Of a stretch of DNA of 50,758 nucleotides, positions 27,002 through 30,983 are shown piece after piece. The DNA comes from Caldifarciminota bacterium (lineage in GTDB: Bacteria > Hydrothermota > Tepidihabitantia > SM23-42). The position numbers and the translations under genes are program-made. The notes under the pieces are model-generated. The model searched no databases. It saw nothing but the letters and a program-made list of their open reading frames with translations, and had not been told where the DNA came from. Location: positions 2,120,086 through 2,170,843 of the forward strand of contig CP070686.1 in the NCBI GenBank assembly GCA_020353055.1, read 5' to 3'. Numbering within the stretch: position 1 is the first letter of the stretch; every line of letters begins with the position of its first letter.

Positions 27002-27988
27002 CTATCTTTGGAGTGGCTCGCTTTTCCAGACTATCCTGCCGGCTCTATTCACATAAGCGCGGTTTTTCAGGGTATCCAGCACCATGGCTAAACCACCTGA
27101 GAAATGGCCCACGAGTTCAAATTGTAGCGGTATGACTACCCTGCCTGATTTATCTATATAGCCCCATCTGTCACCAACCTTAACTGCAGACAAACCCTCG
27201 AAGAAACCATATGCCAGGTCGAATTTCGGTTCTATCGCCAATTCGCCATCAGTGTCTATGAAACCCCACTTCTCGCCAATCCTGACCGGCGCGAGGCTGT
27301 CGGAGAACGTCCCGGCGAAATCAAATTGTAGTGCAATGATCATCTTCCCCTTCTGGTCGATGAAACCCCATTTGCCATCCACAAAAACAGGAGCACGTCC
27401 TTCAGAAAACATGCCCACGGCGTCGAATTGAGGCTCTATTTTAACTTCTCCAGTCTGATCAACATAACCCCAGCCGGCGCTGTCCCGGAAAGCTGCCAGG
27501 CCCTCGGAAAAGGTGAGCGGAATGTCGAATGCCGCAGCGATGACCATCTCACCATTCTTATCGATACAGCCCCATTTTTCCTCGGTCCGAACAGCAGCGA
27601 GGCCCTCGGAAAACGCACGCACGGCAGTGTATTTGGGCTCTACCACGAAATTTCCAAGCGTATCGATAAATCCCCATTTCATTCCGACTCTCGCGTCCGC
27701 CTTACCTTCGGAAAAGAAGCTACTATGGTCGAACTGCGGTTCAATAATTACCTCACCTTTCTCGTCCATGTAACCCCACTTCCAATCCTTCTCAAAGGCC
27801 ACGCGCCCCTCGGAAAACCGACCAGCCCGGTCCAGCTGCGGTTCTATCACAACCTTGCCATTGTTGTCTATGTACCCAATCTTCTGATCAACCATGATTG
27901 GAAACAACTTTGAATCGTTACCTCCTCCAGAACCGCCGCAAGACAGCACGCATATTGCTGCAAGACAAAACGGAAGTATTTTTTTCAC
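27002..27988 (-). CDS. WG-repeat lipoprotein
   Basis: 328 aa from a GTG at 27988 that follows AAGGAG; the resulting N-terminus (KKILPFCLAAICVLSC) is a lipoprotein signal with Cys in LSC. The mature part is about nine WG repeats of about 35 residues (WGYMD/WGFID ... EPQFD ... FSEGLA), the first and last degenerate. WG-repeat proteins form beta-propeller-like or solenoid structures of unknown function. Expected at the periplasmic face of a membrane. Confidence 0.9.
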   Translation of the reverse strand: MKKILPFCLAAICVLSCGGSGGGNDSKLFPIMVDQKIGYIDNNGKVVIEPQLDRAGRFSEGRVAFEKDWKWGYMDEKGEVIIEPQFDHSSFFSEGKADARVGMKWGFIDTLGNFVVEPKYTAVRAFSEGLAAVRTEEKWGCIDKNGEMVIAAAFDIPLTFSEGLAAFRDSAGWGYVDQTGEVKIEPQFDAVGMFSEGRAPVFVDGKWGFIDQKGKMIIALQFDFAGTFSDSLAPVRIGEKWGFIDTDGELAIEPKFDLAYGFFEGLSAVKVGDRWGYIDKSGRVVIPLQFELVGHFSGGLAMVLDTLKNRAYVNRAGRIVWKSEPLQR

Positions 27989-28119
27989 AAACACTCCTTT
28001 TTCTGCTGAAAATTGTTTATCAGAACTTTGAACAAGCCGTATGAACACGTGAATAATACTACAACCACCAACTATATCGTGAGGTGTATAATGAAACGAT
28101 AACTAGTAGTATGTTCATG

Positions 28120-29092: not shown

Positions 29093-29155
29093 AATCATTT
29101 GTGCGAGTATTAAAGCAATGATATTATGGGTCGCACCCTCAAAGAAGGAGGTAAT

Positions 29156-30184
29156 ATGGGGAAATTATCACTTGGTGTAATGATGACTTTGCTGGTGCTC
29201 GGTTTACTCAGCGGTACTTACGCTGCCCAACGGGTCGTCATGATGGAAGAAGCCTACTGGAGTGGCTGACCAACCTGCCCTTATGCCAGCAGTCTGCTGG
29301 ACACAATCTCTATGCTTGATTATCCTGACCAGACCGCCCTCGTGGAGTATCACTCGGCCACGGGTGATTTTGGATTTCTTCAGGAAGCACGAGACCGCGT
29401 CTACAATTACTACATTTTTTACGGATATCCATCACTTTTCGCCGACGGTGTTGATCTCTGGCCGATAAGTACTTGGAGACCGTGGCTCACGAATCGCATG
29501 ACACAACCCTCGCCGATTACGCTAAATATTACAGGTGGCTATGATCCGGTAACTAAAAACGGTATGGTAACCGCCTCTTTCCAGAATGATTCTTCGAGCG
29601 CCATTACGGCGCGTGTCTATTTTGTCATAACCGAGGACAGCCTTTACCACCTCGACCCTAACGGCCATGAGTGGCACAACAAACTGGCACGTGATTTTCT
29701 GCCGGACGAAACCGGTGAAGTGATAACCATCGATGTGGGGCAAACCGAGGACGTGAGCCGCAACTTCACGATCGATGCCGCCTGGGATGAGGATTTCTGT
29801 ACCATAGTAACCTGGATTCAGGTAGATGCTCCCTCGCGCGAGGGACTTCAGGCCGGTAAGATAAAAATAACGGATCTCGTCGGGATCGAAGAGCTCGTCG
29901 TCAACAAAATAGAAAAATCCGTCATTACATTGGTCAATAATCCATGTTCTGCAAATAATATCCGATTCCTTATCGAACTTCCCCAGGGTACAGCATATGG
30001 GCTTGAGATATTTGATGTTCTGGGACGAAACGTAGAGAGTTACGCTGGAACTACATCGAGTGGCCGGGAAATAATGCAATTAGAACTTAGCGCCGCTGAC
30101 CGCAAACGTGTGAGTGCCGGTGTATATCTATATCGGTTCACCAGTAAGACGGAGACAGCAACGGGTAAGATCATAGTAAAGTAA
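29156..30184 (+). CDS. Putative secreted thioredoxin-fold selenoprotein (Omp28-like) with C-terminal sorting domain
   Basis: 343 codons including an in-frame TGA at codon 38 (29267-29269). ATG 29156 follows AAGGAGG. Residues 1-23 are a signal peptide (MGKLSLGVMMTLLVLGLLSG). Next comes EEAYWSG-Sec-PTCPYA: TGA occupies the first position of a CxxC redox motif, Cys41 is the second. The thioredoxin cis-proline is visible at P92 (YGYPSLFADG). An Ig-like region follows, and residues about 280-342 form a type IX-type sorting domain (LEIFDVLGRNV ... AGVYLYRFTS). The frame remains open and well coded for 305 codons after the TGA. Starting at ATG 29312 instead would remove both signal peptide and active site. 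Alternative: a nonsense mutation TGC to TGA. Role likely disulfide or peroxide redox chemistry outside the cytoplasm. Confidence 0.8.
29267..29300 (+). promoter_or_regulatory. Candidate bacterial SECIS element
   Basis: The in-frame TGA (29267-29269) is followed after 22 nt by apical loop GTC (29292-29294), closed by a perfect 6-bp stem CCAGCA (29286-29291) / TGCTGG (29295-29300). Loop sequence and spacing fit the general bacterial SECIS model (short G-U loop about 16-37 nt from UGA), and GCAGUCUGC resembles the E. coli fdhF apex as I remember it. Confidence 0.6.
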
Positions 30185-30395: not shown

Positions 30396-30983
30396 ATGAA
30401 ACACGCATCGCTATTAATAATCATCGCAATCTTCACGATCTCACCACTGCTTGCGCAAACAACTGATGAAGCGCCGGAGAGAACGCCGGCACCTTCTGAC
30501 GCCGAAGAGCTGAAGAGTGTAAGCAGACTCCCTGAAGCCGCAAAAGAGGCAAGGGAAGCAGGCACCGAAGAAGACGAAATACAGAATGTAGTAAAAGGCG
30601 TACAAGAAAAGAAACTTTCTCCCGAGGAAGGCGCGAACACCATACGAATTATGGAAGAAAACTCGGCTGAAGGAGCGTCAAATAGGGGGATATCGGACTT
30701 TGTGGTCGAGCAGAAGGCAAAAGGCGTCCACGGTGAAGACCTCGGACAAGCGGTGAGAACCGAACTGCAAGCCCGGCATCGCGTCAGAGTTGAGGAAGGT
30801 GAAGGGAAAACGGAACGAAAGGAAGAGCGTGAAGGGCAGGAAGCCGAAGTAGAAAGGGAAAGCGCGGAGAAAACGAAATCTGAAACCAAGGCACCCGACG
30901 AAGGCGACCAGAAGCAGAAGGACATGAAGAAGAAACCAGATGAAGAACAGCCCGCGTCAAAAGGAAAAGGTAAGGGAAAATAG
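30396..30983 (+). CDS. Exported low-complexity Glu/Lys-rich protein of unknown function
   Basis: 195 aa. Signal peptide MKHASLLIIIAIFTISPLLAQ, then a folded-looking segment (about 40-125) with two similar EE-x(6)-V pieces, then a highly charged Glu/Lys/Arg tail from about 128 ending in KGKGKGK. No family recognised. ATG is preceded by GAGGAGG. The long antisense reading frame is a composition artefact. Confidence 0.75.
   Translation: MKHASLLIIIAIFTISPLLAQTTDEAPERTPAPSDAEELKSVSRLPEAAKEAREAGTEEDEIQNVVKGVQEKKLSPEEGANTIRIMEENSAEGASNRGISDFVVEQKAKGVHGEDLGQAVRTELQARHRVRVEEGEGKTERKEEREGQEAEVERESAEKTKSETKAPDEGDQKQKDMKKKPDEEQPASKGKGKGK

Follow-up and report, generated by a model that had tools for sequence, protein, structure and literature searches.

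A gene of an uncultured bacterial phylum, Caldifarciminota (formerly WOR-3), very probably encodes an exported selenoprotein. Its product is predicted to be a UxxC thiol-disulfide oxidoreductase that carries selenocysteine (Sec) at codon 38, leaves the cell through the type IX secretion system (T9SS), and shares the layout of HBP35 from Porphyromonas gingivalis. The gene lies in a window of 50,758 nucleotides, the whole stretch of DNA analyzed here, which corresponds to positions 2120086-2170843 of the single contig that makes up the 2.69 Mb genome. In the proposed mechanism, SelB and the Sec-tRNA would read the UGA at codon 38, guided by a hairpin just downstream, and the signal peptide would export the product. 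The type IX secretion system would then recognize the C-terminal domain, and the product would cross the outer membrane. Once it has left the cytoplasm, the protein would act as a thiol-disulfide oxidoreductase whose nucleophile comes from the U-P-T-C motif in its thioredoxin-like domain, a motif comparable to the CxxC of surface-located HBP35.

Gene and domain organization

Direct translation of the frame with TGA read as U gives a protein of 342 amino acids with a single internal TGA, set in the context AYWSG-U-PTCPY (Table 1). A first-pass annotation, made from the letters alone, had described one frame broken only by a TGA at codon 38 in SG-TGA-PTC, and translation confirms this. It was also right that the frame stays open beyond the TGA, but its count of 305 codons should read 304 sense codons plus the stop. 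Without read-through, the longest open reading frame is 29312-30184 (290 amino acids, from the ATG at 29312), the same truncated product that it had anticipated from standard annotation. Inspection by eye indicates a hydrophobic, signal-peptide-like N-terminus ending in ...GTYA-AQ. Three further proposals, an Omp28-like protein, a C-terminal sorting domain, and a thioredoxin cis-proline, agree with the above-cut-off matches to PF11551 and TIGR04183 and with a cis-Pro-like GYP (P92) that is nearly invariant in relatives.

Table 1. Coordinates of the gene, its predicted elements, and its paralogues (plain numbers refer to the window; G000:C1 refers to the contig of the source genome)
Feature	Position	Strand	Basis
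Selenoprotein gene (predicted)	29156..30184	+	translation; frame conserved in orthologues, dN/dS about 0.1 past TGA
Shine-Dalgarno AAGGAGGT	29145..29152	+	3 nt 5' of ATG; read directly; strong
Predicted Sec-type signal peptide, residues 1-23	29156..29224	+	sequence inspection, by eye
UGA codon, residue 38, putatively selenocysteine	29267..29269	+	TGA/Cys at homologous places; Sec machinery of the genome
Putative resolving Cys of UxxC, residue 41	29276..29278	+	invariant in 40-member alignment A4
bSECIS-type hairpin	29284..29302	+	published bSECIS rule; covariation in 75 relatives
Omp28 domain, residues 81-223	29396..29824	+	PF11551, 40.6 bits, cut-off 34.9
Pro92, candidate thioredoxin cis-proline (GYPSLFADG)	29429..29431	+	nearly invariant in relatives
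T9SS type A sorting domain, residues 262-342	29939..30181	+	TIGR04183, 39 bits, curated cut-off 23
TGA paralogues L020/L022	G000:C1:1476003-1478121	-	tandem pair
TGA paralogue L021	G000:C1:924533-925252	-	longer fusion, Cleaved Adhesin domain
TGA paralogue L023	G000:C1:2181563-2182246	+	longer fusion, long C-terminal extension

A nearby gene (27002-28048, minus strand) encodes a WG-repeat protein with eight PF14903 stretches and is conserved in relatives. The next gene downstream (30396-30983, plus strand) has a signal-peptide-like start and keeps its position in several relatives; a Pfam search with it gave no match.

Selenocysteine machinery and the use of TGA

The source genome encodes a complete set of the four Sec components searched for. 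The tRNA-Sec (selC) scores 75 bits, over the cut-off, and has the anticodon TCA, while SelA, SelB, and SelD score 550.8, 346.3, and 317.5 bits. The first-pass annotation had proposed this search, naming an absence of the machinery as evidence against its reading, and all four of selA, selB, selC, and selD are present. They lie together at 448-463 kb, whereas the window spans 2120-2171 kb, which explains its correct remark that the window itself holds no sel genes. SelD (L016, G000:C1:461771-462676, minus strand) is itself a selenoprotein, with its own in-frame TGA in the motif KCAGUASK.

Some candidate phyla reassign TGA, and read-through in a sequence does not by itself identify the residue inserted. 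The codon might thus specify Trp, Gly, or Cys through a reassigned code or a suppressor tRNA, or might simply be leaky. Within the window, TGA is the ordinary stop of 6 of the 24 clear genes, so a global reassignment is rejected. A more restricted form of this reading is opposed by the presence of SelA, SelB, selC, and SelD, by Cys as the alternating residue among relatives, by the tracking of SelB by TGA forms, and by a covarying bSECIS-type hairpin; taken as a whole, decoding as a residue other than Sec is very improbable. A scan of the window for further TGA-interrupted frames returned many chance cases and, judged by eye, nothing comparable.

Conservation of codon 38 among relatives

A search for homologues across the class, covering 65 genomes, yielded 130 homologous places spanning codon 38. 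At the aligned codon, 94 of these places have TGA (a count of 93 to which the misaligned case L127 is added) and 34 have Cys (TGC or TGT), while the remaining 2 have neither, so that Cys occupies 34 of the 36 places without TGA. In homologues from the other classes of the phylum, too, this codon is TGA or Cys only. The Cys/Sec alternation that the first-pass annotation had suggested looking for is therefore present.

The nearest named relative, 82% identical, was found in a contig scan that returned one near relative: CP070802.1, a metagenome-assembled genome (MAG) of candidate division WOR-3, phylum Caldifarciminota, in which the flanking gene order is retained. A search of viral contigs for relatives found none. 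A pseudogene or a sequencing error, with the TGA a true nonsense mutation or a miscalled TGC, would look like exactly such a lone in-frame stop, and the nearest named relative is itself a MAG. Against this, TGA occupies this very codon in 94 copies of the gene, drawn from many genomes; orthologues with 57-82% identity are among them. Because orthologues in several independent genomes share it, its occurrence exceeds chance.

Selection on the gene points the same way. Among same-genus orthologues, all of which keep the TGA, dN/dS is 0.07-0.12 over the whole gene and, where estimable, 0.06-0.11 after the TGA, with synonymous sites near saturation in more distant pairs. The codons past the TGA are thus under purifying selection (dN/dS about 0.1), in a frame with no other stop. 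The first-pass annotation had named TGC in close relatives, or other disruptions there, as signs against its proposal; codon 38 in these relatives is TGA, and the orthologues are without further disruption. Given the conserved TGA in independent genomes and the purifying selection downstream, a pseudogene or sequencing error is rejected as vanishingly improbable.

Sec decoding is also consistent with the distribution of the machinery. In a per-genome table compiled by hand, the TGA form occurs in 45 of the 48 genomes with SelB over the cut-off (3 lack it) and in 4 of the 17 with SelB not over the cut-off (13 lack it). Fisher's exact test gives p = 6.5e-8 across the 65 genomes, a value that ignores kinship and overstates independence because the genomes are related. 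The four genomes with the TGA form and no SelB over the cut-off are fragmented assemblies, 53-90% complete. In families f3-f5, no SelB exceeds the cut-off, and no TGA form occurs among the matches listed or fetched. Together, these lines of sequence evidence strongly support Sec decoding at codon 38; the sel genes, the TGA in relatives, the selection downstream, and the Cys/Sec alternation all favor the selenoprotein proposed at first pass.

A bSECIS-type hairpin downstream of the UGA

The published bSECIS rule specifies a 4-16 bp stem, a 3-9 nt loop with a G within the first two loop positions, a distance of 16-37 nt from the UGA, and a minimum free energy of at most -7.5 kcal/mol (PMC13188914). 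The window gene fits this rule with a 6 bp stem, the loop GUC, a spacing of 22 nt, and -8.9 kcal/mol. The core of the hairpin, CCAGCA-GUC-UGCUGG, occupies 29286-29300, and its apical loop lies 22 nt past the UGA. The rule is fitted by 65 of the 75 TGA genes of clade A, the clade of the window protein, versus 15% of synonymous recodings, and by 18 of the 19 TGA genes of clade B, the mixed group described below, versus 21%; overall, 83 of 94 TGA genes fit, against 15-21% of recodings. Genes with Cys at this position fit in 11 of 34 cases, nearer to background.

Covariation adds to this picture. In a 75-sequence alignment (A1), columns 24 and 30, each a third codon position, form a stem pair that reads CG in 35 sequences, UA in 33, and UG in 6, and columns 21 and 33 show a paired change in 3 sequences. 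The covariation score is 0.253 versus 0.145 in shuffled alignments, with 0 of 500 shuffles reaching the real value, although the shuffles ignore relatedness; slid versions reach at most 0.164. The signal came only from comparing relatives, as the region folded as a single sequence is unexceptional (z = 0.09). The RNAalifold consensus is weak (-0.57 kcal/mol), probably because loops of 3 nt and 5 nt are mixed, and an Rfam search gave no match.

Predicted thioredoxin-like fold and relation to HBP35

No variation is seen at U38, C41, H66, D97, and G98 across the 40-member alignment. In profile comparisons, P92 aligns with the Pro of the clade B motif G-x-P-T, which in turn aligns with a thioredoxin. 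Compared with each other, the clade A and clade B profiles match along 233 columns with a probability of 100, and the clade B profile matches the thioredoxin 1fo5 and HBP35 (5y1a). A profile search also found the Omp28 structure 2r2c (E = 0.0037), whereas phmmer with the single window protein against the PDB found nothing. An AlphaFold model built from 2 sequences only reached a pLDDT of 37.5, too poor to be informative, and the predicted thioredoxin fold therefore rests on the profile matches.

HBP35 (PDB 5y1a), an exported protein of similar length, resembles the window protein in combining a thioredoxin motif with a C-terminal T9SS domain. The likeness is distant, with a clade B profile match of E = 1.9e-4, and HBP35 differs in having Cys at the active site, in binding hemin, and in belonging to a different phylum. 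Recombinant HBP35 reduces insulin in a manner dependent on C48 and C51 (PMC2907840). This likeness, together with SprA, PorU, and the sorting domain, suggests that the window protein is most likely an extracytoplasmic, probably surface-located, thiol-disulfide oxidoreductase, an activity predicted from relatives.

Predicted type IX export

Domain matches support a T9SS route for the window protein. The sorting domain is present in 39 of the 40 clade members. The T9SS components searched, SprA and PorU, both have homologues above their cut-offs in the source genome (390 and 447 bits). The first-pass annotation had ventured that the protein is perhaps sorted to the surface, and the T9SS type A domain and these two homologues strengthen that suggestion.

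Alternatively, Sec may be inserted while the protein stays periplasmic, with a C-terminal domain that does not function as a T9SS signal in these bacteria. In favor of this reading, the bit score of the sorting-domain match is modest, and the search for T9SS components covered SprA and PorU. Weighing against a periplasmic location are the near-universal presence of the domain in the clade, the SprA and PorU matches, the dozens of further matches to this type of C-terminal domain elsewhere in the genome, and the precedent of HBP35, which has the same layout and reaches the surface through the Por system/T9SS (PMC3120885). A purely periplasmic protein is accordingly unlikely, and export across the outer membrane remains the preferred reading. 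The dozens of matches to this domain type across G000:C1 suggest a large set of T9SS cargo in the uncultured phylum. A literature search for the combination of selenium and type IX secretion returned nothing relevant; the predicted protein would tie the two together.

Relation to known Omp28-type and UxxC selenoproteins

The proposed kind of protein has a precedent. GOS_C, an Omp28-related selenoprotein with a thioredoxin-like fold and a UxxC motif, was reported in 2008 by Zhang and Gladyshev (PMC2398784) and is catalogued under NF045500 in a 2026 review (PMC13188914); the NCBIfam name of this model is "Omp28-related selenoprotein". The window protein is likewise Omp28-related, with a predicted thioredoxin-like fold and a predicted Sec in UxxC, and its homology to NF045500 extends over residues 24-241. 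It scores 49.6 bits, however, where the model cut-off is 200, and a search of 147 phylum genomes gave no match over the cut-off. Since the protein scores so far under a cut-off that no phylum genome exceeds, it is best described from its sequence as a UxxC Omp28-type selenoprotein outside NF045500 as curated. Its clade is separate, T9SS-tagged, and set apart by model score. The first-pass annotation had called the protein a probable new selenoprotein; the Sec reading stands, and the newness must be qualified because Omp28-related selenoproteins of the GOS_C/NF045500 kind were already described, with novelty limited to a distinct clade.

The Omp28 outer membrane lipoprotein (NF033782, PF11551, PDB 2r2c) shares the Omp28 domain, and all 40 clade members match NF033782. 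Clade members match this model no less well than NF045500, with best E values of 4.3e-21 and 8.1e-17, respectively. The window protein nevertheless scores 27.2 bits against the NF033782 cut-off of 150, its signal peptide is without a lipobox Cys, and its predicted Sec comes first in the CxxC motif. The UxxC thioredoxin, DsbG-like, and TlpA-like selenoproteins similarly have Sec in place of the attacking Cys of a CxxC-type motif (PMC13188914), but they belong to other families, whereas the window protein combines a predicted thioredoxin-like part with Omp28 and T9SS sorting domains.

Clades, paralogues, and Sec/Cys history

In a tree of 128 sequences, computed with TGA positions masked and Cys left in, the window protein falls in clade A (n = 75; support 100/95), in which all 75 members have Sec. 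Elsewhere in the tree, Sec and Cys occur side by side, and at least five state changes are required over the whole tree. Clade A, always Sec and spread over many genera, thus offers, against a sister group that switches between Sec and Cys, a natural test of selenium retention at active sites. Because standard gene calling would truncate such genes at the TGA, a predicted group of exported selenoproteins, spread across a lineage of this uncultured phylum, would stay hidden.

The source genome has five TGA members of the family, of which four fall in clade A and the fifth in the mixed clade B. On balance, we lean towards regarding clade A as a repeatedly duplicated set of selenium-dependent, cell-surface T9SS oxidoreductases in which Cys is never found and which are lost, not converted to Cys, once the Sec machinery is gone. 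The idea of loss rather than conversion is suggested by genome G044: no SelB exceeds the cut-off there and the matches listed include no TGA form, whereas both are present in G042 and G043, genomes of the same genus. Within clade B, the long Omp28 proteins at loci L093-L136 show switching between Sec and Cys.
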